Below the pieces are notes generated by a model. It searched no databases. It was not told the DNA's origin and was given only the letters and a program-made list of their open reading frames with translations. Of a stretch of 64,000 nt of DNA, positions 48,236 to 59,381 are shown in pieces; position 1 is the first letter of the stretch; each line of letters begins with the position of its first letter. The position numbers and the translations under genes are program-made. The stretch is from Streptomyces sp. WMMC500 (GTDB lineage Bacteria > Actinomycetota > Actinomycetes > Streptomycetales > Streptomycetaceae): contig NZ_CP114905.1 of assembly GCF_027497195.1 (NCBI RefSeq), forward strand, positions 3,086,001 to 3,150,000, given 5' to 3'.

Positions 48236-48541
48236 TCACCAGCTCGACTTGCGGACGCCGGGCAGGTGTCCGGCGTGGGCGTGGGTGCGGAGGTTGATGC
48301 GCGACAGGCCGAAGGCGCGGAAGTAGCCGCGGGGGCGGCCGTCGACGCCGTCGCGGTTGCGTACCCGGGTGGGGCTGGCGTCGCGAGGTTGCGCCCGCAG
48401 CTCACGCTGGGCCGCCTCGCGCACGTCAGGCGGCGTGGAGGGCTTGCGGATGAGTTCCTTCAGTTCTGCGCGGCGCGCGGCGTAGCGGGCGACGACGGCC
48501 CGCCGCCGCTCGTTCTTCGCGATCTTGCTGGTCTTCGCCAT
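48236..48541 (-). CDS. rpsN: 30S ribosomal protein S14, zinc-independent paralogue
   Basis: A 101-residue ribosomal protein: [21 protein letters not shown], the central [19 protein letters not shown] and the end [20 protein letters not shown] followed by [14 protein letters not shown]. The longer form with no CxxC motifs is the C-minus type that replaces the zinc-binding S14 when zinc is scarce. Its ATG overlaps the stop codon of the L28 gene (ATGA), forming a typical Zur-controlled ribosomal operon. Confidence 0.96.
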
Positions 48542-48777
48542 CAGATCTTCTCCCCCCGGGCGCGCATCCGCGCGACCGCGCTCTCGATGCCCATGACGTC
48601 GATGGCCTTGATGCCCTTGGCACTCAGCGTCAGCCGGACGTACCGGCGCTCGCTGGGCAGCCAGTAGCGCTTGCGCTGGATGTTGGGGTCGAAGCGCCGG
48701 CGGGTGCGGCGGTGGGAGTGGGAGACGTTGTTGCCGAAGCCGGGCGTGCGCCCCGTCATCTGGCATCGGGCAGACAT
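48541..48777 (-). CDS. rpmB: 50S ribosomal protein L28, zinc-independent paralogue
   Basis: A 78-residue ribosomal protein with [21 protein letters not shown] and [20 protein letters not shown], characteristic of L28. The zinc-ribbon cysteines are lost: only one Cys remains (SARCQMTGR). It is therefore the C-minus paralogue expressed under zinc limitation, freeing zinc held by the ribosome. GGAGGAAC lies upstream of the ATG. It is the first gene of the L28-S14 operon, with a Zur-like box about 50-70 bp upstream. Confidence 0.95.
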
Positions 48778-48827
48778 CGGGCGGTTCCTCCGATCGGTGG
48801 GTTCCTGCGGCCTGAGAGGACCATACA

Positions 48828-48848
48828 TGAAAATGAAAACCGTTACGA
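48828..48848. promoter_or_regulatory. Zur-box-like sequence between rpmB operon and L31 remnant
   Basis: TGAAAATGAAAACCG and the overlapping TGAAAACCGTTACGA resemble one and a half copies of the streptomycete Zur box (TGAAAATGATTTTCA). The site lies between the divergent L28 and L31-like starts, where Zur boxes normally control such genes. The symmetry is imperfect. Confidence 0.5.
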
Positions 48849-48892
48849 TATCTACTGCGGGGCATCGAAGAGCGCTGAAGGGAGCCCCCCAG

Positions 48893-49110
48893 ATGCAGCC
48901 TGGCATCCACCCCTCCTACGGCCCCGTCGTCTTCCGCGACCGGGCCGCGAACTTCGCCTTCCTCACCCGCACAGCGGCCGTCGAGTCCCTGCTGCGCGCC
49001 GTGCCCGGCGCCGTCGCCGTCCACCACGACCTGGAGGCGGTCGAGGGCAACCGCATGCCCCGCACCGTGCGCGACGCCGACGGCGTACGGGACCGGGGCC
49101 GGCCCCGCAT
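48893..49110 (+). pseudogene. Chimeric remnant: L31 type B N-terminus joined to a CobW-like GTPase fragment
   Basis: The first 27 codons ([27 protein letters not shown]) are the N-terminus of zinc-independent ribosomal protein L31 (RpmE2). The frame continues directly into [20 protein letters not shown], then [15 protein letters not shown], which matches the region after the P-loop in CobW-family GTPases of Zur regulons ([16 protein letters not shown] type). It then loses homology and runs out. The L31 body and the CobW start, including the P-loop, are missing. An in-frame deletion in an ancestral rpmE2 - cobW operon explains it. AAGGGAG still precedes the ATG. Confidence 0.65.
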
Positions 49111-49141
49111 GTCGCCGTCGGCTGACGCACACGCGCACGAT

Positions 49142-49174
49142 CTCGGCCCCGGGGACGGAATCTCCGGGGCCGAG
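49142..49174. terminator. Hairpin after the ABC permease gene
   Basis: An 11-bp perfect stem CTCGGCCCCGG/CCGGGGCCGAG with an 11-nt loop lies 42 bp beyond the stop of the minus-strand permease gene and can also end transcription of the chimeric remnant. Confidence 0.7.
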
Positions 49175-49215
49175 GCATGCGGGCGTTGGGCACAGCCGTT
49201 CAGTCGAGGCGCTCG

Positions 49216-50145
49216 TCAGCCCCCGGCCGGTCCGGCCGCGGCCGGAGCGTTCGGCTCCTCCCTCGCTACGGGCGCGTCGCCGCCCGTCCGGCGCATGTCG
49301 CGCTTGCGGCGCCCGGCGAGCAGCCCGTGGCGGGGTGCGAAGAGCCAGCACAGGACGAAGGCGCCGGTGGCGACGAGGACGATGAGTCCGCCGGCGGCGA
49401 GGTTGCGGTGGTACGAGAGGTACAGGCCGACGATCGCGGAGCCGGCGCCGATGGCCGGGGCCAGGGCCATCATCGCGCCGATGCGGTCGGTCAGCAGCCG
49501 TGCGCAGGCGGCGGGGGTGATGAGTAGGGCGAGGACGAGGATGTTGCCGACGGCCTGGAGGGCGATGACGACGGTGACCGTGACGAGCGCGTAGAGCAGG
49601 ATGTCCAGGCCGAAGACCGGCAGGCCCGCGGACCTTGCGGTTTCGCGGTCGAGGCTGACGGTGACCAGTTCCTTGTGCACGGCCGCGGCGGCGAGCAGGA
49701 CGACCGCGCCCATCACGGCGACGGTGCGGACGTCGCCGTTGCTGATGCCGAGGATCTGGCCGAAGAGGAACGACTCCAGGGAGCCGCTGTAGCCGGGGGC
49801 GGTGCTGAGGATGACGATGCCCAGGCCGAAGGCGGCGGCGAAGAACACGCCGATGACGCTGTCCTCCTTCAGCCGGCGGTTCTGCGAGAACACCGCGACC
49901 GCGAGCGCGGTGAGCAGTCCGGCCACCGCCCCGCCGACGACGAGGTTGAACTCCAGGACGAAGGCCACGGCGACCCCGGGGAAGACCGCGTGGGAGACGG
50001 CGTCGCCGATGAAGGCCATGCCGCGCAGCACGACGTGGCAGCCGACGACGCCGGAGACGATGCTGCACATGACCGCGACGGCGAACGCCCGCTGCATGAA
50101 CACGTGCTGCCACGGGTCGGTGAGGAAGTCGGCGACGGCGCTCAC
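49216..50145 (-). CDS. Metal ABC transporter permease, anchored-repeat type (ZnuB-like, cf. TIGR03770)
   Basis: A 309-residue inner-membrane protein of the ABC-3 family, with eight to nine segments between residues about 15 and 280. [25 protein letters not shown] is the conserved coupling region near residue 40, and [23 protein letters not shown] follows near residue 210. The C-terminus is a cytoplasmic Arg/Pro/Ala-rich tail. It carries Zn2+ (or Mn2+) delivered by the repeat-bearing binding protein encoded two genes upstream. It is the last gene of a six-gene minus-strand cluster and overlaps the ATPase stop (GTGA). Confidence 0.92.
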
Positions 50146-50912
50146 CGGTTGACTCCCAGTGAGGTCAGCAGCGCCTCGGACCTGGTCACGCCGAAGGCGC
50201 GCAGCCAGATCGCGGGGTCGCGCAGGGCGGCGGGTTCGCCGTCGGCGACGACGGTGCGGTTGAGCAGGCACAGCCGGGTGGCGATGTCGGCGGCCTGGGG
50301 GAGGTCGTGGGTGGTCATCAGCAGGGCTTTGCCCTCCGTGCGCAGGCCGGTGAAGAGGTCGGTGAGCAACTCCTGGGTGGGCACGTCGAGTCCGGTGAAC
50401 GGTTCGTCGAGCAGGAGCAGCCCGGGGCGTACGGCAAGGGCACGGGCGACCAGCACGCGCTGGCGCTGCCCGCCGGACAGCTCGCCGATGGGGCGGTCGC
50501 GCAGCCCGGTCATCGCCACCCGCTCCAGCGCGTCGTCGACGGCCTCGCGGTCGGCGCGGCCGGGGCGGCGCAGCCAGCCGACGAGGTGGGTGCGGCCGGT
50601 CATCACGGCTTTGTGCACGGGCAGCGGGAAGTCCCAGGCGAACTCGTGGCGCTGGGGGACGTAGCCGACGCTGCCGCGACCCCGCACCGCGGGCTGCCCC
50701 GCCAGGTCGATCGTGCCCGAGGAGGGGATGAGCAGGCCGAGGACGGCGCGCAGCAGGGTGGTCTTGCCGGCCCCGTTCGGGCCGATCAGGCCGACCAGCT
50801 CCCCGGCCCGTACGGCCAGGTCGACGTCCTCGATCGCCATCCGCCCGCCGAGTTCCACGCCGAGGCCGCGGACGTCGAGCACCGGCGGCGTCTCGCGCAC
50901 CGTGGCGGTCAC
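50142..50912 (-). CDS. Metal ABC transporter ATPase, anchored-repeat type (ZnuC-like, cf. TIGR03771)
   Basis: A 256-residue ATPase. Walker A is GPNGAGKTT (about 44-52), the Q-loop is VPQRHEF, the signature is [15 protein letters not shown] (about 145) and Walker B is [12 protein letters not shown] (about 168), with the H-loop TTHDL. It groups by context with the TIGR03771 proteins that serve transporters whose binding protein contains surface-anchored repeats. The GTG overlaps the stop of the upstream repeat protein gene, and its own stop overlaps the permease start. Confidence 0.92.
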
Positions 50913-51850
50913 CGCTCGCCCCCGCCCGCGCTCGGGCCGCGGCCGCGGCGCCAGACGAGGGTGCCGGCGACGGCCGCCACCAGCGCGGCGGCTCCCACGC
51001 CCCACCACAGCGGCGCGGTGGAGTCGTCGGTGGCCTCCCCCGAGGACGCAACGTCGTCCCGCGCGGGGCCCGTTCGCTCCTCCTCGCCCGCGGACGCCCC
51101 GGGGGTGTGCTCGCCCCGCGCCGCCCCGGCCGCGGCGAAGGCCCTCTCCGGGTTCTGCGGTCCCACGGAGAACCGCAGGGTGCGGGTGTCCTCGTGCTCG
51201 GTGCCGTCCTTGGTGGTCGCGCTCATCCGCACCTCTATCAGGTACGTGCCGGGTTCGGTGAAGGCCCAGTTGCCGTGGACGTGGGAGCCCGTCTCGATGC
51301 CCGTCTCCTGCGGCAGCGGCTTGCGTCCGTCGAAGAGGATCTGCGGGGCGCCGAAGCTGCCGTTGAGGAAGAGCACGAAGTCGCCCGGGCCCTCGACGCC
51401 GGTCAGTTGCCAGGTCACCTCGCGCTCGACGCGGGCGGCGACCTCGGGCTCCTGGCTGTTCCAGCCCGGCCACAGCACCCCCGCCTGCTGCGCCTGCGGC
51501 AGCAGCCACACCCGGCCGCCGGGCTCGCCGAGGAAGGAGAACTCCTCACCCCCCGGCACCTCGACCCCGGCCGCGTCGGTGACGTGCAGGACGACGTCGT
51601 CGGTGTTCCGCCACGTCGGCGGCTCCACGGTGTCGTCGCGGATCTGCACCGTCCAGGTGCCGTCGTCGAAGCGCGGGCCGATGTCGATGTGGCCGTCGCC
51701 GACGACCGTGCGGCCGGTGCCCGTCTTCGCCGCGGCCTCGGACTCGTCGCCCTGGGCGGGCGAGAGGGCCGCGACGGGGGCGGCGGTGAGCAGGGCGGTC
51801 AGCAGCGCGCCGGCCAGGGGCAGGGCGCGTCGGGTGCGGTGACGGGTCAT
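50909..51850 (-). CDS. Secreted choice-of-anchor M (TIGR03769) repeat protein with C-terminal membrane anchor
   Basis: A 313-residue exported protein. A signal peptide (residues 1-28) is followed by one surface-anchored repeat domain (about 46-230): GDGHIDIGPRFDDGTWTVQI, DDVVLHVTDAAGVEVPGG, FSFLGEPGGRVWLLPQAQQA, VLWPGWNSQE, LTGVEGPGDFVLF and the histidine-bearing SHVHGNWAFTEPGTYLIEV. A Gly/Glu/Thr-rich linker leads to a membrane helix (PLWWGVGAAALVAAVAGTLVW) and a short basic tail. No sortase motif is seen. It overlaps both neighbours, so it belongs to the transporter operon and probably presents zinc at the cell surface. Confidence 0.85.
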   Translation of the reverse strand: MTRHRTRRALPLAGALLTALLTAAPVAALSPAQGDESEAAAKTGTGRTVVGDGHIDIGPRFDDGTWTVQIRDDTVEPPTWRNTDDVVLHVTDAAGVEVPGGEEFSFLGEPGGRVWLLPQAQQAGVLWPGWNSQEPEVAARVEREVTWQLTGVEGPGDFVLFLNGSFGAPQILFDGRKPLPQETGIETGSHVHGNWAFTEPGTYLIEVRMSATTKDGTEHEDTRTLRFSVGPQNPERAFAAAGAARGEHTPGASAGEEERTGPARDDVASSGEATDDSTAPLWWGVGAAALVAAVAGTLVWRRGRGPSAGGGER

Positions 51851-53442
51851 CAGGCGGAGCCTCCGAGACAGCGGCGCAACTCGTCGGCGTTGTGCCGCAT
51901 CATGTCGGTGTAGTGCCGGGTGTTCTCGTCGAAGGCGTCGCCGTACAGCTTGCACACCTCCACGCCCTGGTCCTCGGCCACCTGGGTGAGCACCGAGGCG
52001 CGCCGGACGAGGTTGGGCTCCATGAACACGGCCGGGACGCCGAGGTTGTTGATCGTGCGGGTCAGCTTCTCGACGTCGTCCGCGCTGGGCTCCTGGGCCG
52101 GGTTGGGCACGACGAAGCCGGCGACGGTCATGCCGTAGGCGTCGGCCAGGTAGCCGAACGCGTCGTGCGTGGTGATCAACTGCCGCCGTTCCGCGGGAAT
52201 CCGGCCGATCTGGTCGCCCACGTAGCGATCGAGGTCGTCCAGTTCACGCGCGTACGCGCGACTGCCCGCGTCGTACGCGTCCGCGCCCTGCGGGTCGGCC
52301 TTCTTCAGCGTGTCGCGGATCAACTGCGCGTACGCCTTCGCGTTCTGCACGTCCTGCCACAGATGGGGGTCGATCTCTCCGTGCACGTGCTTGCCCAGGA
52401 CGGCCTGCGGAAGCTGGTGGACCGGCTCTCCCGGCCGGCCGAGGAAGGAGAACTCCTCCTCCTTCGGCACCTCTTCGATCGCGCGGTTGGGCACGTCGAC
52501 GACGACGTCGCCCGGCGGTATCTCCTCCTGCTCCTCGCCGCCGGTGCGCAGGTCGGTGTACGCGGACATCCGTCCGGTGTCGATGTTGACCGTCAGGTCG
52601 GTGTGTCCCTCGTCGAGGATGGTGTCGCCCTTGTCCGCCACGGTGTGCGGGTCGACGCCGACCGCGAACGTGAACGTGCCCTCGCCCACCGGCTGCGGCT
52701 CGCCGCCGGGGTTCTTCAGGCGGGCCTGAAGGGTGAGTTCGTACACCCCGGGTTCGGTGAAGGCCCAGTTGAGATGGGTGTGTGCGGCCGGCGGCAGGGA
52801 GGTGGTGTCCGCCGCGGAGAAGCCGTCGGTGGAGTCGAAGTACCTGTTCGGCTTCCCCAGGGACTCGGTCAGGTACGCCACCAGCTCGCCCGGCCCGCTC
52901 ACGTCGGTCGCCGACAGCAGGATGTCGGAGGAGCGGCCGGCGCCGCGCGCCTCGCCGTCGCCGCGCACCCGCAGGCCCAGCCAGAGCACGTCCAGGCCGA
53001 CGTCCTCGACCAGCGGGATGACGTTCGCGCCGTAGGTCTCCGACGCCTCGGCGAGCGAGACGTTCGGCGTGCCCTCGCGGGCGTTGGCGTCGACGGTCTT
53101 GATCAGGGCGTGCTCCTCCAGCAGCAGGTGGTTGGTGAAGGTGACGTCGGCCTCGGTGACCTTCTCCGCATCCTGCGGGGTGGGCTCGTAGGAGTGCGGA
53201 TCGCCTCCGGGCGGCACGACCGAGTCGACCTGCACGCGCTCCCCGCCGACCCGGCGGACCAGGTCGGCGAGGATCTCCGTGGTGGTCACGACCCTCAGCT
53301 CCGCGTCCGGGTTCTCCTCCGCCGCGTCCGGACGGGCGTGGCCCTCGCACCCGGCGAGCACCAGCGCGAGGGCGGCCATGGCGGTCGCGCCGGCGGACGC
53401 GGTGCGCAGCGCACCTCGACGGCGCGCGGTACGGGGCGTCAT
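51850..53442 (-). CDS. ZnuA-like substrate-binding lipoprotein with inserted surface-anchored repeat (cf. TIGR03772)
   Basis: A 530-residue lipoprotein (lipobox LAGC near residue 32). The metal-binding SBP_9 fold is split. The first lobe has VVTTTEILADLVRRVGGERV and PPGGDPHSYEPTPQD with the first His ligand. The fold is interrupted from about residue 150 to 355 by a choice-of-anchor M repeat (AHTHLNWAFTEPGVYELTLQ, EFSFLGRPGEPVHQLPQAVL). It resumes with HGEIDPHLWQDVQNAKAYAQ, LITTHDAFGYLADAYGM and VCKLYGDAFDE, which supply the remaining ligands. It delivers Zn2+ (or Mn2+) to the permease. The repeat insertion distinguishes this transporter type from ordinary ZnuA. Confidence 0.92.
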   Translation of the reverse strand: MTPRTARRRGALRTASAGATAMAALALVLAGCEGHARPDAAEENPDAELRVVTTTEILADLVRRVGGERVQVDSVVPPGGDPHSYEPTPQDAEKVTEADVTFTNHLLLEEHALIKTVDANAREGTPNVSLAEASETYGANVIPLVEDVGLDVLWLGLRVRGDGEARGAGRSSDILLSATDVSGPGELVAYLTESLGKPNRYFDSTDGFSAADTTSLPPAAHTHLNWAFTEPGVYELTLQARLKNPGGEPQPVGEGTFTFAVGVDPHTVADKGDTILDEGHTDLTVNIDTGRMSAYTDLRTGGEEQEEIPPGDVVVDVPNRAIEEVPKEEEFSFLGRPGEPVHQLPQAVLGKHVHGEIDPHLWQDVQNAKAYAQLIRDTLKKADPQGADAYDAGSRAYARELDDLDRYVGDQIGRIPAERRQLITTHDAFGYLADAYGMTVAGFVVPNPAQEPSADDVEKLTRTINNLGVPAVFMEPNLVRRASVLTQVAEDQGVEVCKLYGDAFDENTRHYTDMMRHNADELRRCLGGSA

Positions 53443-55166
53443 GACGCGGCGTCACCGCCGGCCGCGGACACCGTACGCGGGCGTATCCGGCCGAGGGCGA
53501 CGGCCGCCGCGCCGCCGAGCACGAGCGCGCCCGCACCCGCTGCCAGCGCTCCGACCGGGGCACCGCCGGTGTGCGCCATGCTGCCGCCACCGCCGTCGGA
53601 TCCACCCGGATCCGAGGAACCGCCGCCGTCCGCGCCACTGCCGGAGCCGCCGCCCGGCCCGCCGGTTCCGCTCCCGTCGCCGCTGCCGCCGCCCGGGTTC
53701 ACCGTGCCCGGGTCGACGTCGCCCACCGCGAAGGTGTACGTGCGGGTGTCCGAGGTCGCCTGCCCGTTCGGCTTCTCACCGCTCAGCCGGAACGTGACCT
53801 TGTAGACACCCTCCTTGCTGAAGCCCCAGTTGGCGTGCGCGTGCACCCCGAGGCCGACCTCGCGGTCGTCCGGCAGCCCGTCCCGGGAGTTGTACAGCAC
53901 CTCCGCGCCGCCCAGCCCGGCGGTCGACCAGATCGCCAGCTCACCCGGGCCGCTGACCTTGGTCAACGCCATGTCGACCGGACCGTTCAGGTCACCGCCG
54001 TCCAGGGACTCCGTGTTCCACCCCGCCCACACGACGCCCGGCTTCTGCACCTGGGGTACGAGCCAGAAGTCGCCGCCCGCCTCGCCCAGGAAGTCGTAGC
54101 CGCCGCCTGCGGGAACCTTCTCCTTCGCCTCGGGGACGACGTGCATGACCACCGAGGACGGCTCACGCCAGACGATGTCCCCCGGATTGCGGCTGTCCTT
54201 GAACAGCGTGCGCAGCCTGCCGTTCACCATGCGGCCGGCGATCGCGTCGACGTGCCCGTCGTCGATCACCACCTTCTCGGTCGCGATGTCCGACTGAAGC
54301 GTGCCCGCCGAGTCGGCGGTACGGGAGCCGCCGGAGCCCGCGGCAGCCCCCGCACCGCCTGGGGCCGCGCCCGGACGTGCGCCGTCACCGGCGGGCGGGG
54401 CCGGATCGGGGGAGGCCGGAGGAGGGGCCGGGGAACCGGTGTCCCGCGGCGTCACCCGTACCGTCCACTCCGCACTGGCCGTCGCCGACTCCCCCGAGGC
54501 GAGGTCGGCCGTCGCCTCGGAGGTGATGCGGTACTCCCCGGGCTCGTCGAACGCCCAGGCCAGTTCCCCGGTGTCGGCGGCGGGCAGCGCCCGGCCGTCC
54601 GGCAGCCCGTCACTGCTGTCGAACAGCACCCGCGGCCGCTGTGCGTCCTCGGCCGGGTCACCGGCGTCGGAGCCCGCGCCGGCCGAGCCGTCCGCGCCGG
54701 CCGCGAGCGGCTCGAAGACGGCCACGTCCCCCGGCCCCTCCACCCCGGTCAACGCCCACTCCACGGCGCCCTCGGCACCGTCCGCGAGCGCGTCCGCCGG
54801 TACGCCGGACGTGTCCCACCGCGGCGCACCGGCGTCGCCGGCCACCGCGCCGTCCAGGACCCACACCGGGGCGCCGGGCCGGCCCAGGAAGCCGTAGGCG
54901 GAGTCCTCGGGCACGGTGGTCCCGGACTCGGGGCCGAGTTCGAGGTCCGCCGTCCCGCCGTCGCCGGCGTCCCGTGCCCCCGGGCCGAGACCGAGGGTCA
55001 ACGTGCCCTCGTCGAGGGACAACACGACGTCTGCCGCGCCGCCGGAGCCGCTGCCCCCGCCGGGCGCCGCGGGGCCCGCGACCGCCGCGGGAGTACCCGC
55101 CGCGGCCAGAGCCACGGAACCCACGATGCCGGCGGCGGTCCAGCGGACGTTCCTTCTTGCTCCCAT
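53439..55166 (-). CDS. Cell-wall repeat protein of the anchored-repeat ABC transporter locus (cf. TIGR03773)
   Basis: A 575-residue exported protein. A signal peptide is followed by a first, degenerate repeat domain (about 45-245: AYGFLGRPGAPVWVLDG, LTGVEGPGDVAVFEPL, ELAWAFDEPGEYRI). After a Pro/Ala/Gly linker comes a second, canonical domain (about 315-500: DDGHVDAIAGRMVNGRLRTL, IVWREPSSVVMHVVP, FWLVPQVQKPGVVWAGWNTE, HAHANWGFSKEGVYKVTF). A Gly/Ser/Asp linker precedes the tail SMAHTGGAPVGALAAG with a hydrophobic helix and RIRPR. MAHTG resembles the LAxTG motif of class E sortases. Its stop overlaps the start of the binding-protein gene. Confidence 0.85.
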   Translation of the reverse strand: MGARRNVRWTAAGIVGSVALAAAGTPAAVAGPAAPGGGSGSGGAADVVLSLDEGTLTLGLGPGARDAGDGGTADLELGPESGTTVPEDSAYGFLGRPGAPVWVLDGAVAGDAGAPRWDTSGVPADALADGAEGAVEWALTGVEGPGDVAVFEPLAAGADGSAGAGSDAGDPAEDAQRPRVLFDSSDGLPDGRALPAADTGELAWAFDEPGEYRITSEATADLASGESATASAEWTVRVTPRDTGSPAPPPASPDPAPPAGDGARPGAAPGGAGAAAGSGGSRTADSAGTLQSDIATEKVVIDDGHVDAIAGRMVNGRLRTLFKDSRNPGDIVWREPSSVVMHVVPEAKEKVPAGGGYDFLGEAGGDFWLVPQVQKPGVVWAGWNTESLDGGDLNGPVDMALTKVSGPGELAIWSTAGLGGAEVLYNSRDGLPDDREVGLGVHAHANWGFSKEGVYKVTFRLSGEKPNGQATSDTRTYTFAVGDVDPGTVNPGGGSGDGSGTGGPGGGSGSGADGGGSSDPGGSDGGGGSMAHTGGAPVGALAAGAGALVLGGAAAVALGRIRPRTVSAAGGDAAS

Positions 55167-55203
55167 GGGGATGACTGCTCCTTCGCGTTCGGGGGTCTTC
55201 AGG

Positions 55204-56454
55204 TCAGGCGCGTGCCGTGTCCGCGGCCACGTCACCGCCGGCGGGACGCGCCCTTCTGCGGTTGACGTAGACGAAACCTCCGGCCCCCACGGCGATGAGC
55301 GCCGCGCTGGCCACCGCCAGCGGAAGCACCCCGGCGGATCCGGTGCTGGCAAGCCCGCCGCCCTTGGCCGCCCCGCCGTCGCTGCCGCCGGCCACCCCTG
55401 CGGCTCCCGTGTCGCCCCCGGAGGAGCCACCGCCGTCCGTACCCTCACCGACGGAGGCGCCGGCCGCGGTGACGCCGCCGGAACTCCCGCTCGTGCCGCC
55501 GCCGGAAGAGCCACCGTCACTGCTTCCGGCGTCCGTCGTGCCGCCGGAGCCCCCGTCGGCGGTGCCGCCGTCGGAAGAGCCACCGTCGCCGCCGGACCCG
55601 CCGTCGGAGGTGCCGCCGTCGTCTGCGCCGCCGTCCGTGGTGCCACCGTCCGTGGTGCCGCCGTCCGAAGTGCCGCCATCTGAGGAGCCGCCGCCGTCAC
55701 CGGGCAACGTCACGTCGTCCGGATCGATGTCGCCGACCGCCATGGTGAAGACCTGGCTGTCGGAGACCTCCTCACCGGAGGCGAGCGTCGCGGAGAAGGT
55801 GAACGTCATCCGGTACACGCCCTCCTCCGTGAAGGCCCAGTTGGCGTGCTCATGCGTACCGCCCGGCACGTCGTAGCCGTCCGGCAGGCCGTCGCGGGTG
55901 TCGAACCTGGGCAGCGGCTCACCGAACGTCGACCACGCCCAGACGACGAGCGAGCCCGGGCCCTCCACCTCGTCCAGGGACAGCTTCAGGCGGCCGTCCA
56001 GGTCGGCGGCGGCGAACTCCTCGGTGTTCCACCCCGCCCACAGCACCTCCGGATCCTGCGCCTGCGGGATCAGGTGGAAGACATCACCGGGCTCACCGAT
56101 GTACGCCAGCCCTCCGGCCGGGTCGGGGATCGTCTGCCTGCCCGCAGGGGTGAGGTGCATGACCACCGAAGTCGGCTCGCGCCAGATCACGTTGGCGGGC
56201 TCGCGGCTGTCCTTCAGCAGGGTGCGGAACTCACCGTCCACCAGACGCGGCGCGACCGCGTCCACATGTCCCCTGTCGATGACGGTGCGCTCGTCCACCA
56301 CGTCTCCGGCAGCCGACGCGGCCACAGACGCCGCGGGCGGCGTGACGGGTGCAGCATCCCCGTCACCGCCGCCCGCGGCGCCGACCGACACCAGCCCGGC
56401 CGCGGCCAGGACCAGGGCCGCAAGCACCCGGACCGGCCGATTGGTTGCTCTCAT
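55204..56454 (-). CDS. Sortase-anchored choice-of-anchor M (TIGR03769) protein
   Basis: A 416-residue wall protein and first gene of the minus-strand cluster. A signal peptide leads to one repeat domain (about residues 57-245: RGHVDAVAPRLVDGEFRTLL, VIWREPTSVVMHLTP, YIGEPGDVFHLIPQAQDPEV, EGPGSLVVWAWSTFG, THEHANWAFTEEGVYRMTF). About 120 residues of Gly/Ser/Thr/Asp-rich repeats (DGGTSDGGTTDGGTTDGG) form a wall-spanning spacer. The tail has a clear LASTG sortase motif, a hydrophobic helix and NRRRARP. GAGGGGCG precedes the ATG. A Zur-type box lies 100 bp upstream. Confidence 0.88.
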   Translation of the reverse strand: MRATNRPVRVLAALVLAAAGLVSVGAAGGGDGDAAPVTPPAASVAASAAGDVVDERTVIDRGHVDAVAPRLVDGEFRTLLKDSREPANVIWREPTSVVMHLTPAGRQTIPDPAGGLAYIGEPGDVFHLIPQAQDPEVLWAGWNTEEFAAADLDGRLKLSLDEVEGPGSLVVWAWSTFGEPLPRFDTRDGLPDGYDVPGGTHEHANWAFTEEGVYRMTFTFSATLASGEEVSDSQVFTMAVGDIDPDDVTLPGDGGGSSDGGTSDGGTTDGGTTDGGADDGGTSDGGSGGDGGSSDGGTADGGSGGTTDAGSSDGGSSGGGTSGSSGGVTAAGASVGEGTDGGGSSGGDTGAAGVAGGSDGGAAKGGGLASTGSAGVLPLAVASAALIAVGAGGFVYVNRRRARPAGGDVAADTARA

Positions 56455-56553
56455 CGCCCCTCATCTGCAGTTGTGTCCGTCTCCGGGATGACGGCGACGA
56501 AGCCCCCGGGCACGCACTGGTGTGCGTACGACGCGACAGCACGATACCTGCGA

Positions 56554-56568
56554 TGGTAATCATTTTCA
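56554..56568. promoter_or_regulatory. Zur-type box for the anchored-repeat operon
   Basis: TGGTAATCATTTTCA on this strand is TGAAAATGATTACCA on the other, close to the streptomycete Zur box TGAAAATGATTTTCA. It lies 100 bp upstream of the first repeat-protein gene of the minus-strand transporter operon. Confidence 0.7.
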
Positions 56569-56597
56569 ATAACACCGAACCCCCTTCCCTCGCTAAT

Positions 56598-56612
56598 TGA
56601 TAACGATTATCA
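56598..56612. promoter_or_regulatory. Second Zur-type box in the divergent spacer
   Basis: TGATAACGATTATCA has exact TGATAA/TTATCA arms around CGA. It is 30 bp from the first box in a strikingly A/T-rich stretch, about 225 bp before the plus-strand secreted repeat protein. Two boxes in a divergent spacer suggest that each direction has its own operator. Confidence 0.72.
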
Positions 56613-56838
56613 TTCCAATGTGACGCCACGCCAGGCGTGACGCCTGGGCCGGCAGCCGCGCGCCCGGCCGTGTCGGCAGACGCGTCCGCCCGTTGCACCG
56701 CAGGCACCGCCACCGATGAACCGCGCCACCGCAATCCGCCGCACGACGTGCACGCCGGGCCCACGGGCGGGCCGTGTCACGTCAGTCCGCGCGGCGGCAC
56801 GTCGAGCACGTCCAGCAGACCTCGGAGGAGATCCCCTG

Positions 56839-57489
56839 ATGAACATGCGCTCAAAGCTCGTCGTCTCGCTCGGCGCCCTGGGACTGGCGTTCGTCGCCGG
56901 CCCGGGCACCGCGCAGGCGGCCGAACCCGTCACCCTCTCCACCGGCCACGTCGACGTCCTCGACGTCGAACTGCACGTCGACCACTTCCACATCCACCTC
57001 AAGCACGACGCGGACGGCGGGCCGGTCTCGTACGACCCCGGCGAGGTCGTCCTGCACGCCGTGCCCGAGTCCGAGACCACCGTGCCCGACGACGAGCGGT
57101 TCGCCTTCCTCGGCAATCCGGGCGATCCCGTCTGGATCCTTCCCCAGACCCACAACCCCGACGTCCTGTTCGCCGGACTCTCGGCCGAGGGAGTCGAGCC
57201 CGGAGCCACCCGGGGCGACGCCGTCAGCTTCACCCTGACCGACCTCCAGGGCCCGGGCGACTTCTCGGTCTTCGACGTCGGCACAGCCGGCTCGCCGGAG
57301 ATCCGCTTCGACAGCGGCGACGGCCTGCCGGACGTCACCGAGGTCGCCGCCGGCGGGCACGAACACATGAACTGGGCCTTCGAAGAGCCGGGCGACTACA
57401 CCGCCACCATCGAGGTCGCCACGACACTGCTCGACGGCACCGTCGTCACCTCCCCGCCGTACGAGCTGACCTTCAAGGTCGGCGCGTGA
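56839..57489 (+). CDS. Small secreted choice-of-anchor M protein, histidine-rich
   Basis: A 216-residue exported protein with a signal peptide (cleavage after AQA, residue about 28) and a single repeat domain: STGHVDVLDVELHVDHFHIHLKHD split over residues about 35-58, FAFLGNPGDPVWILPQTHNPDVLFAGL, LQGPGDFSVFDV and GGHEHMNWAFEEPGDYTATI. It has no membrane tail or sortase motif, so it should be released. The VDHFHIHLKHD segment adds four His residues to the usual conserved HxH, suggesting direct metal binding. GGAGGAG lies nine bases before the ATG. It is divergent from the anchored operon and shares its Zur-type boxes. It could act as an extracellular zinc carrier feeding the wall proteins. Confidence 0.88.
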   Translation: MNMRSKLVVSLGALGLAFVAGPGTAQAAEPVTLSTGHVDVLDVELHVDHFHIHLKHDADGGPVSYDPGEVVLHAVPESETTVPDDERFAFLGNPGDPVWILPQTHNPDVLFAGLSAEGVEPGATRGDAVSFTLTDLQGPGDFSVFDVGTAGSPEIRFDSGDGLPDVTEVAAGGHEHMNWAFEEPGDYTATIEVATTLLDGTVVTSPPYELTFKVGA

Positions 57490-57616: not shown

Positions 57617-58453
57617 TCAGGCCCGGCTCGCCCGCCCGGGGCCGGCGGGCGCGTTGCCGGCGCCGATCAGGGTGGTGGCGTCGAGTTCGGTGACCCCGTC
57701 GGCACGGAGGGAGCCGAGGTAGCGCTCGCGCACGTCTGCCACGGTGCCGGGGTCGAGCGCGGCGATGGCGCCCCGGTAGCCGGACCCGGTCACCACCAGC
57801 CAGGCCAGCTCGGGGGTCATGGTCACCCGCAGCTCGTGTGTCACCACCTCCACCCCGGTCAGGCCGCGCTCGGTCAGCCAGGCGGCGTAGCTGTCGGCCT
57901 GGTTGATCCGGTCGATCAGGTGTGGCTCTCGTTCCCCGGGCGGCGGGTTGCCGGTGGCCGCGGCCACGGCCCGGCCGAGGTGCCGGCCGGCGGCTGCCAT
58001 CGCGTCCCCGCGCCAGATGGTGAACACGATCCGGCCGCCGGGGCGGGCCAGCCCGATCAGGCGCTCGGTGCCGGCCGGCATGTCGGGGAGGAAGAAGATG
58101 CCGAGCGCGGACTGCACCACGTCGTAGCCGCCGGCGTCCCACGAGGTCACGTCGGCGGCATGGGCGCGCACCTGCGGCAGGCCGTCCGACAGCCGGCGCA
58201 GCTCACCGATCATCCGGTCCGACAGGTCGACCGCGTCCACCACCCCTTCCGCGCCCACCAGCTCCGCCGCGGGCAGGGCGGATGCGCCGGCACCGCAACA
58301 GGCGTCGAGGACGCGATCACCCGGACCGATCCCGGCGGCCGCCACGGTCGCGACCCCGATGGGTCCCCACAGATGGCGCCCGAGAGCGGTGAAGTCGGCG
58401 GCGGCGGCGTCGAAGGCGCGCCGCGTGTCATCTTGTCGGCCGGACACAGTCAT
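57617..58453 (-). CDS. Class I SAM-dependent methyltransferase, Zur-type promoter
   Basis: A 278-residue cytoplasmic methyltransferase. Motif I is RVLDACCGAGASALPAAELVG (about residues 46-66), the acidic residue follows in VVDAVDLSDRMI, and YDVVQSALGIFFLPDMPAG carries motifs II-III. PGGRIVFTIWRGDAM is the post-motif. UbiE/Methyltransf_11-like. The ATG lies seven bases after TATCAT, which with GTGACA 18 bp further upstream makes a complete promoter of a leaderless mRNA. A Zur-like palindrome overlaps this -10. Control by zinc and the acceptor substrate are unknown. Confidence 0.85.
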   Translation of the reverse strand: MTVSGRQDDTRRAFDAAAADFTALGRHLWGPIGVATVAAAGIGPGDRVLDACCGAGASALPAAELVGAEGVVDAVDLSDRMIGELRRLSDGLPQVRAHAADVTSWDAGGYDVVQSALGIFFLPDMPAGTERLIGLARPGGRIVFTIWRGDAMAAAGRHLGRAVAAATGNPPPGEREPHLIDRINQADSYAAWLTERGLTGVEVVTHELRVTMTPELAWLVVTGSGYRGAIAALDPGTVADVRERYLGSLRADGVTELDATTLIGAGNAPAGPGRASRA

Positions 58454-58461
58454 AGTAGAGA

Positions 58462-58476
58462 TGATAATCATTCTCA
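58462..58476. promoter_or_regulatory. Zur/Fur-type box between divergent methyltransferase genes
   Basis: TGATAATCATTCTCA (complement TGAGAATGATTATCA) differs by one base from the TGATAATnATTATCA palindrome of actinobacterial Zur. It overlaps the -10 of the minus-strand methyltransferase and lies 47 bp before the plus-strand one. A Fur-like or other metalloregulator is possible. Confidence 0.6.
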
Positions 58477-58523
58477 TCACGGAGTGTCACCCCGAACGCC
58501 CATCAACCCCAGGGACACCGAAC

Positions 58524-59381
58524 ATGACGGACAGACACCAGATCACGTTGGGCCCGGCACAGGAGACGCTGCTGATTCCGCTCTACGGACGGGCCGTCGA
58601 GACCCGCAAGCGCCATCCGATGGCGAGGGATCCGCGTGCCGTGGAGATCGTCGAAGCGATCGACTACGACTTCGCCAAGTTCGACGGAGACCGGAGTCTC
58701 GAGGGTTCGGTCCTGCGCGGGTTGATCTTCGATCACTGGGTCGCCGGTTTCCTGCGTGAGCATCCGGGGGGCACGGTGGTCGAGATCGGCGCGGGGCTGA
58801 ACACGCGGTTCGAACGGCTCGACAACGGGGCCTGCCACTGGGTCGAACTCGACCTGCCCGACTCCATGGAACTGCGGCGGAAACTGTTCCAGGAGAGCGA
58901 TCGGCGTTCGATGATCGCCGCCTCCGTCGTGGACGACACGTGGGCCGCCCGCGTACGTGAGCATCCCGCTCCGTACTTCTTCGTCGCCGAGGCGGTGCTG
59001 ATCTACCTCACCGAGGCCGACGCACGCGGCGTGGTCGGCCGGATCAGGGACGACTTTCCCGACGCCACGCTGGCCTTCGACACCTGGGGCGAGTGGATCC
59101 TGCGCAACCAGCGGCGACGGGACCAACGGCGGCGCGACCCGCTGAGGAAGATGTCCGCCACGCTCGAATGGGCCTGCGACGATCCCCGGGAGATCGAGTC
59201 GTGGCACCCGGGCGTCACGCTGTCCGCCGGCCACACGCTCGCGACTCCACCCCGGGCCGTGAGAACCGCGCTTCCCCTCCGCATGCGGGCGCTGCTGCCG
59301 GTGATGCGTTCTCTCCCACAGACCAGGGCATACCGGCTGAACCTGTTCACCCTGCAGACGTCGTCGAGTTCGGCACGATGA
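58524..59381 (+). CDS. LCM/PPM-family class I methyltransferase
   Basis: A 285-residue protein of the leucine-carboxyl-methyltransferase-like family common in actinomycete metabolism. ETLLIPLYGRAVETRKRHPM and VLRGLIFDHWVAGFLREHPG open the domain. TVVEIGAGLNTRFERLDNG is the SAM-binding loop, WVELDLPDSMELRRKLF contains the acidic ribose contact and FFVAEAVLIYLTEADARGVV is the active-site helix. Related enzymes O-methylate polyketides or siderophore-like compounds. It is divergent from another methyltransferase across a Zur-like box, so both may act on a metal-scavenging product. AGGGAC precedes the ATG. Confidence 0.9.
   Translation: MTDRHQITLGPAQETLLIPLYGRAVETRKRHPMARDPRAVEIVEAIDYDFAKFDGDRSLEGSVLRGLIFDHWVAGFLREHPGGTVVEIGAGLNTRFERLDNGACHWVELDLPDSMELRRKLFQESDRRSMIAASVVDDTWAARVREHPAPYFFVAEAVLIYLTEADARGVVGRIRDDFPDATLAFDTWGEWILRNQRRRDQRRRDPLRKMSATLEWACDDPREIESWHPGVTLSAGHTLATPPRAVRTALPLRMRALLPVMRSLPQTRAYRLNLFTLQTSSSSAR

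Follow-up and report, generated by a model that had tools for sequence, protein, structure and literature searches.

A predicted circularly permuted M domain in the binding protein of a putative Zur-controlled zinc locus of Streptomyces sp. WMMC500

How zinc crosses the thick wall of a Gram-positive bacterium, and how it passes from protein to protein on the way to an importer, are the questions raised by a zinc locus of Streptomyces sp. WMMC500. The locus lies in a window of 64,000 nucleotides, meaning the whole stretch of DNA analysed here, on contig NZ_CP114905.1, the single contig of an 8.61 Mb genome. By its sequence, the locus belongs to the known anchored-repeat zinc ATP-binding cassette (ABC) systems (TIGR03769-03773, ZnuAECB). 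It encodes an importer, four exported proteins with choice-of-anchor M domains (M1-M4), and two zinc-free ribosomal proteins. The binding protein of the importer very probably carries one complete M domain, which is circularly permuted and appears to sit where the related binding protein AztC has its transfer loop. The original prediction for this DNA lacked the permutation and proposed a relay of zinc from secreted and wall-fixed repeat proteins to the same domain in the binding protein; the permutation and a coupled set of histidines make that idea sharper and testable.

Read from a divergent gap, the minus-strand genes are M3, M2, the binding protein, M1, the ATPase, and the permease, with L28 and S14 beyond the permease (48777-48239), and M4 lies on the plus strand at the other side of the gap (Table 1). 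The transporter was rightly foreseen, as the permease, ATPase, and binding protein each pass the curated cut-off of TIGR03770, TIGR03771, and TIGR03772, respectively, and membership in the group is further indicated by the NF038134 domain in the binding protein and its exported neighbours. All six TIGR03769 matches in the genome are at this locus, and PF01297 matches the binding protein in two pieces. The nearest relatives among named records, which may exclude those of the window's own genome, are Streptomyces, with 88% identity in the best binding-protein segment (Streptomyces sp. CNH099). For comparison, 80 related loci were used, the best 80 of 434 from a search seeded with the motifs HTH..WAF and PQAV.GKH; by their record titles they cover many actinobacterial genera, some of which are harmless and convenient to study. 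The anchored-repeat system is patchy but wide: of 199 genomes of the genus, 12 have a TIGR03772 match above the cut-off, as have 3 of 296 genomes sampled from the phylum, and both counts include the window genome.

The permutation is seen with a profile derived from the window's five stand-alone M domains. In the binding protein, profile positions 77-186 match residues 148-262 and positions 2-81 then match residues 274-352. This order, C-terminal half before N-terminal half, is found in all 80 related loci, stricter limits included, and in none of 328 stand-alone open reading frames (ORFs). Across the 80 loci, the overlap between the two halves has a median of 4.5 profile positions (0-42), and the linker that joins them has a median of 12 residues (7-37). 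The proteins found with TIGR03772, which comprise all those above the cut-off except the window's own, are permuted in 12 of 12 cases and keep HTH, GHxD, [KR]HVHG, and DPHxW in every case; four of the 12 are not new, since L165 and L166 gave seeds and L155 and L156 correspond to L096 and L044. The repeat announced for the binding protein is thus present, although it is inserted and circularly permuted instead of appended.

At the level of strand order, structure prediction agrees with a single domain. AlphaFold2 gave the mature binding protein (70 sequences) a mean predicted local distance difference test (pLDDT) value of 85.6 and a predicted template modelling (TM) score of 0.82, and gave the M domain of M1 (101 sequences) a pLDDT of about 97. 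In mature numbering, the binding-protein strands 123-129, 142-151, and 156-161 correspond to M1 strands 98-103, 113-125, and 130-135, strands 167-172, 182-185, and 189-192 to M1 strands 141-146, 153-158, and 162-164, and strands 194-197, 201-212, and 219-230 to M1 strands 166-169, 173-185, and 190-201. After the linker, strands 243-245, 249-255, 260-265, and 275-277 correspond to M1 strands 20-22, 25-34, 37-44, and 51-53, and the elements 282-286, 291-293, helix 298-303, and 309-313 to M1 58-62, 67-69, helix 74-79, and 85-89. The short M1 helix 107-112 has a counterpart of just three residues (133-135), helix 234-237 of the binding protein falls in the new linker, and the mean pLDDT is 57 over the stretch 111-120 ahead of the insert. 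According to these strand lists, H190, H192, and H249 of the mature binding protein (H221, H223, and H280 of the precursor) lie on elements equivalent to those with M1 H162, H164, and H26.

Around the insert, Foldseek finds the ZnuA-type fold intact, with PsaA, MtsA, MntC, AztC, and TroA among the ranked structures at TM scores by target of about 0.8, and outside the insert the model is that of a typical binding protein of cluster A-I. Solved structures were aligned by profile, and in the four alignments printed profile position 75 or 76 closes the first match and 316 or 321 opens the second, with a range of 316-324 in the full table. The match resumes just ahead of the DPH motif (mature residues 327-329), which carries the second zinc ligand, and therefore the right border of the insert is clear. 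The match to the AztC model picks up again at model position 99 (residue 346), and residues 46-147 are roughly equal in number to the 98 preceding positions. Between the permuted M domain and the ZnuA site lies the HVHG stretch, followed by H360, which answers to a ligand of that site; H352, H354, and H360 are kept in 80 of 80 loci, H352 being part of a search seed.

The position of the insert is suggestive because of what is reported for AztC. In the text of PMC7463823, the disordered D-loop of AztC spans residues 117-133, the ligand His138 follows shortly after, and without the D-loop AztC accepts no zinc at all from AztD; PMC6689063 describes this loop, with its three His, as required. Going by AztC numbering and the DPH alignment, the D-loop and the M-domain insert would share one position, and the permuted M domain would therefore occupy the place of the transfer loop. 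A circular permutation at this position was not found in the published literature searched. The permutation is the strongest structural argument for a hand-over from domain to domain.

The histidines of the domain form a coupled set. Among 396 full-length stand-alone M domains from 321 ORFs in the 80 loci, 364 have both HxHxxW and the N-terminal HxD and 30 have neither; the remaining two are mixed, and one of these is truncated at its start. When GHxD is required instead, 342 domains have both motifs, 31 have neither, and 23 have HxH alone, 22 of the 23 with an HxD that lacks the G. By the first count, 394 of the 396 domains thus retain both motifs or lack both, which fits one site built from all three His. 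Zinc quite likely sits on these residues, and an intact M domain would probably coordinate a single zinc with one HxD His and two HxH His. The link between M domain and zinc, already drawn in the original prediction, is strengthened by work on Corynebacterium diphtheriae, where zinc binding is reported for ZnuE, ZnuF, and ZnuG, along with zinc-induced thermal shifts (PMC12445094, J Bacteriol 2025). According to the same text, the HxD/HxH His of both ZnuE and ZnuG matter when bacteria grow in low zinc: ZnuE with the three His changed to Ala (3xAla) fails to complement, 3xAla ZnuG loses its effect on growth, and the 3xAla proteins are less stable (PMC12445094). This work overtakes the statement that the repeats have no established mechanistic role.

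All five M-bearing proteins of the window pass the NF038134 cut-off of 55. TIGR03773 (cut-off 190.3) is passed by M1 (210.1) and M2 (246.4) and not by M3 (156.1) or M4 (117.8), and Pfam at E <= 0.01 gives no match for M1, M2, M3, or M4. The HxD/HxH motif is present in M1, the second domain of M2, M3, and M4, and is found in reversed order in the binding protein. As predicted, the four exported proteins differ by sequence at their C-termini: M4 is unanchored and presumably released from the cell, M1 has a membrane tail, and M3 and M2 have candidate sortase-type signals recognised by eye as LASTG and MAHTG. The anchoring of each protein is read from these signals; M3 scores 17.9 bits against NF058582, below its cut-off of 27, and the genome has five sortase matches. 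The start codon of M2 was chosen in the present analysis. The first M domain of M2 is degenerate and has neither HxH nor HxD, and its second domain is intact; two-domain proteins with a His-free first and an intact second domain also occur in several Streptomyces and Micromonosporaceae loci and in L071. Tandem M domains, two to six in number, are found in many neighbouring proteins of the related loci.

The binding protein, an M protein, the ATPase, and the permease follow each other in this order on one strand in 76 of the 80 loci. L064 (Catelliglobosispora) and L075 (Allorhizocola) have a fusion of the binding protein with an M domain that bears a hydrophobic tail. In L061 and L116 the contig ends before any ATPase. 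Gene order and fusions would tie M1 physically to the binding protein, as a donor-acceptor pair would need. The longest ORFs of the two fusions (773 and 789 amino acids, respectively) comprise a lipoprotein, a permuted M domain, an unpermuted M domain, and a hydrophobic tail.

Candidate Zur control is indicated by boxes of the pattern TGATAAYNRTTATCA, which was used for the window and genome scans. With at most three mismatches, the window has four matches against 0.24 expected, and none of 100 shuffles reaches four; with at most two, the whole genome has 10 sites against one for the reversed control, and three of the 10 are those at 56554, 56598, and 58462. The two strong boxes and the weaker one of the original prediction were all recovered, and the box at 58462 is a fourth that it did not list. 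In the related loci (1.65 Mb), the pattern TGAWAAYNRTTWTCA with at most two mismatches gives 156 sites against three for the reversed pattern, and 69 of 80 loci hold such a box against three of 80 for the reversed control, which favours the proposed Zur-type control. Of the 11 loci without a site, seven are shorter than 15 kb. For 115 of the 156 sites, the position relative to the 5' end of an ORF for S14, L28, the binding protein, or an M protein is between -500 and +400 bases, the 5' ends being those of the longest ORFs and the starts hence rough. Elsewhere in the genome, paired boxes of the related pattern TGAAAAYNRTTTTCA head an operon at 6.59 Mb, which is taken as znuACB-zur from its sequence; its binding protein, ATPase, permease, and Fur-family protein were assigned by position and sequence start, with a model scan for the Fur-family match only.

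The nearest characterised system is the znu cluster of C. diphtheriae, which consists of ZnuA-ZnuE-ZnuC-ZnuB, ZnuF, ZnuG, CmrA, and CmrA2 (PMC12445094, PMC6711530). Repression by zinc and Zur is given for the cluster in a transcriptome table, and two promoters are zinc-repressed in lacZ fusions, according to PMC6711530. Both systems have an anchored-repeat transporter, annotated as such for C. diphtheriae in PMC6711530, an M-like protein between binding protein and ATPase, the HxD/HxH motifs, Zur control, which is putative in the Streptomyces locus, further M-like proteins with membrane or sortase-type tails, and a reversed motif order in the binding protein. In contrast, the Streptomyces locus has the released M4, the two-domain M2 with its dead domain, the adjoining S14 and L28, and the boxed methyltransferase. 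The text of PMC12445094 describes the ZnuA motif only as 'in the reverse orientation', its main text does not use the word 'circular', and, in a comparison made through the text and not the sequences, it does not place an insert at the transfer loop. The permutation would explain this 'reverse' motif of C. diphtheriae ZnuA. The authors propose facilitated transport as a possible function, with storage beside it (PMC12445094).

AztABCD is likewise a cluster A-I zinc importer with a dedicated extracytoplasmic zinc protein, and transfer to AztC needs the loop before DPH (PMC7463823, PMC6689063). However, AztD is a beta-propeller and not an M domain, and the D-loop of AztC is short and disordered, whereas a folded, permuted M domain is predicted here. 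AztC is the best named zinc binding-protein model after TIGR03772; an identity of the locus with AztABCD was rejected, as all scores fall below the cut-offs (AztC 225.3 of 350, AztB 225.4 of 280, and AztA 182.7 of 220 bits). AztD gave no match among the ten locus proteins scanned, for the ATPase among the best 25 of its 190 matches. Other pairs named in PMC6689063 and PMC12445094 are ZinT with the His-rich-loop ZnuA and the Pht proteins with AdcAII. In each pair, as proposed for the present case, a zinc protein of the surface or periplasm is believed to supply a binding protein of cluster A-I. To our knowledge, donor and acceptor have no domain in common in ZnuA-ZinT or Pht-AdcAII, and AztD and AztC have no common part. 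In the locus described here, donor and acceptor share a domain and the acceptor copy would lie at the transfer site, so that a single deletable module would separate capture, hand-over, and import.

On balance, the locus is rather likely to encode a Zur-controlled system for zinc scavenging and import, in which the permuted domain takes zinc from the M proteins. At low zinc, Zur would leave its boxes, and the importer, the four exported M proteins, and the two zinc-free ribosomal proteins would be made. The M proteins would capture zinc at the wall and membrane, with M4 released, M1 held by its membrane tail, and M2 and M3 anchored to the wall. The permuted domain would be the acceptor, at which the M proteins, M1 above all, would dock and hand over zinc, and the metal would then move through the invariant His pair of the junction to the ZnuA site and on to the permease. 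For the hand-over from M proteins to binding protein, with its docking, direction, and path, which we infer, the chances appear about even. The full chain of like domains, from released or wall M proteins to M1, to the permuted M domain, to the His pair, and to the ZnuA site, is a tentative proposal that is somewhat doubtful as a whole. If it is true, a permuted M domain has taken the place of the binding protein's transfer loop, the permutation turns the donor domain inside out so that a former mid-loop becomes the tether to the transporter, and a metallochaperone has been captured into its own acceptor.

Several observations weigh against this proposal. The seeding motifs inflate the conservation of HTH and GKH across the 80 loci, and the left border of the insert is not fixed, as about 40 residues ahead of the M domain stay unaligned in the printed alignments. 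On a FastTree phylogeny of 169 domains (31 degenerate, 23 half, 110 of the 342 intact drawn at random, and five from the window), parsimony requires at least five changes of the HxH state, and three supported independent pairs give a sign test p of 0.25; the coupling of HxH and HxD on the tree has the expected direction and is non-significant. In C. diphtheriae, 3xAla ZnuE still shifts with zinc and the result for ZnuG is unclear, and thus the text of PMC12445094 does not settle the zinc-binding site in vitro. Moreover, deletion of znuA has a weak phenotype and single deletions of znuF and znuG have none (PMC12445094), which lends at best weak support to a chain that has to run through ZnuA. 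Linkage to S14 and L28 is limited to 21 of the 80 loci.

The M proteins may instead sequester or store surface zinc, in which case the importer would take freely dissociated zinc only and the permuted domain would be a second storage site or a gate and no docking acceptor. Such a buffering role appears unlikely, although it draws on real observations: ZnuF and ZnuG lower growth when the transporter is missing, the His of ZnuG are needed for this effect, and storage is among the functions offered (PMC12445094), and M4, released, and M3 and M2, of wall type by sequence, should lie far from the membrane. The loss of growth without a transporter would also be expected of a capture step that has no outlet, and a store leaves unexplained both the M domain beside the DPH ligand, at the transfer-loop position of AztC, and the M gene that stands between binding protein and ATPase (76/80) or is fused to the former (2/80). 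A role in assembly, with M domains pairing mutually or with the wall, the insert docking the binding protein to M1 or the envelope, and the His being structural, is improbable. It would suit the fusions of binding protein and M1, and the motif HxHxxWxF..GxY keeps W and G at 100% and F and Y at 99% over the 396 domains, His-free ones included, which suggests a fold that is useful without the His. However, the joint retention or loss of HxH and HxD argues against structural His, as do the failed complementation by 3xAla ZnuE and the lost effect of 3xAla ZnuG, proteins that are also less stable (PMC12445094).

Another metal, or a complex of metal and metallophore, is a distinctly improbable substrate. 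Solved manganese-binding proteins rank first, and manganese-type models do score (NF053840 at 243.8 and NF053842 at 178.8), yet far below their cut-offs of 400, and the Zur-like boxes, the zinc-free ribosomal proteins near the transporter in a quarter of the loci (21/80), and the zinc repression of the orthologous operon (PMC6711530) point to zinc. Least credible is the reading of the insert as two incomplete repeats left from a tandem array, with no single working permuted domain. Duplication and trimming would begin from tandem M domains such as those of the neighbouring proteins, but a short linker joins the two pieces, which between them span the model roughly once, AlphaFold2 yields every strand of one M domain, and HTH, GHxD, and DPHxW are kept in all 12 proteins found by hidden Markov model.

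Table 1. Positions of the genes, domain parts, and Zur-like boxes in the window
Feature	Position	Strand	Model match
Zinc-free S14 (rpsN paralog), 101 amino acids, no Cys	48239..48541	-	NF006477 131.1 bits (cut-off 77)
Zinc-free L28 (rpmB paralog), 78 amino acids, one Cys, no CxxC	48541..48777	-	TIGR00009 90.7 bits (cut-off 48.3)
Zur-like box TGAAAACCGTTACGA, weaker, between L28 and L31-like chimera	48834..48848	+	
ABC permease, anchored-repeat type (ZnuB-like)	49216..50145	-	TIGR03770 374.2 bits (cut-off 296.8); PF00950
ABC ATPase, anchored-repeat type (ZnuC-like)	50142..50912	-	TIGR03771 339.7 bits (cut-off 268.8)
M1, one choice-of-anchor M domain, hydrophobic C-terminal tail and RR (ZnuE-like)	50909..51850	-	NF038134 197.3 bits (cut-off 55)
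Zinc-type lipoprotein binding protein (ZnuA-like), inserted M domain, very probably permuted	51850..53442	-	TIGR03772 654.6 bits (cut-off 350.45)
Junction KHVHGEIDPH, His pair at the exit of the M domain followed by H360	52363..52392	-	
M domain N-terminal half (HMM 2-81; GHxD, residues 279-282), placed second	52387..52623	-	
M domain C-terminal half (HMM 77-186; HTH, residues 221-223), placed first	52657..53001	-	
M2, two M domains, MAHTG and hydrophobic tail	53439..55166	-	NF038134, 2 stretches
M3, one M domain, long Gly/Ser-rich linker, LASTG and hydrophobic tail	55204..56454	-	NF038134 159.5 bits
Zur-like box TGGTAATCATTTTCA, M3/M4 divergent gap	56554..56568	+	
Zur-like box TGATAACGATTATCA, M3/M4 divergent gap, sole perfect match in the 8.6 Mb genome	56598..56612	+	
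M4, one M domain, signal peptide by eye, without C-terminal anchor	56839..57489	+	NF038134 165.5 bits
Class I S-adenosylmethionine (SAM) methyltransferase, putative regulon member	57617..58453	-	PF13649
Zur-like box TGATAATCATTCTCA, outside the range first noted, 8 bases before the methyltransferase start codon	58462..58476	+	

The spare ribosomal proteins were correctly predicted: S14 and L28 each pass the NCBIfam cut-off and, like C-minus paralogs, have no CxxC zinc ligands and a Zur-like box upstream. The genome has two S14 matches, the other being a 62-amino-acid open frame elsewhere, and three L28 matches. Relatives of S14 or L28 within about 10 kb belong to the 21 linked loci, 20 of which have both, and none of the 41 ORFs has CxxC. 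Part of the cassette resembles a cluster at 1.186 Mb, to which window positions 48473-48865, 48866-48970, and 48968-49113 are 93.6%, 96.2%, and 96.6% identical. That cluster comprises L28, a box identical to TGAAAACCGTTACGA, L31, an MRF-like GTPase (190.1 bits; cut-off 375), and an S18-like ORF recognised by eye, and S14 has no match there. Since the ribosomal cassette is partly copied from this cluster, its linkage to the transporter in the window rests partly on a duplicated piece, although by sequence the linkage is recurrent in the group. The 'integrated island' of the original prediction is justified only in part, given the 21 of 80 linked loci and a ribosomal piece that is partly a 94-97% copy. 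The plus-strand ORF 48893-49113 is a chimera in which 26 initial codons of type B L31 lead directly into an N-terminal segment of an MRF-like GTPase (weak NF047431 match, E 0.0013). By comparison of the sequences it is a decayed copy, the intact L31 and MRF-like genes being at 1.186 Mb under the identical box.

In the C-terminal lobe of the binding protein, C497 and C525 are each kept in 79 of 80 relatives and perhaps form a disulfide. A separate aztD locus, L127 (2.001-2.0205 Mb), has aztD at 2.016 Mb, which scores 487.4 bits against a cut-off of 400, and another AztD-like gene with 66 bits. It also has a ZnuA-type binding-protein hit and, truncated where the stretch ends, an AztB-like permease (260.4; cut-off 280). 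These genes lie near four Zur-like boxes and FecCD/BtuC-like permease, cysteine desulfurase-like, decarboxylase-like, and methyltransferase genes, the latter all below cut-offs, and from this content L127 could be a metallophore locus. The SAM methyltransferase at 57617-58453 sits directly behind the strong box at 58462, and its homologs exceed 100 bits in four of the 80 loci. A leucine carboxyl methyltransferase-like ORF (PF04072) at 58359-59381 on the plus strand overlaps this box and the antisense methyltransferase start; its true start is probably further downstream.

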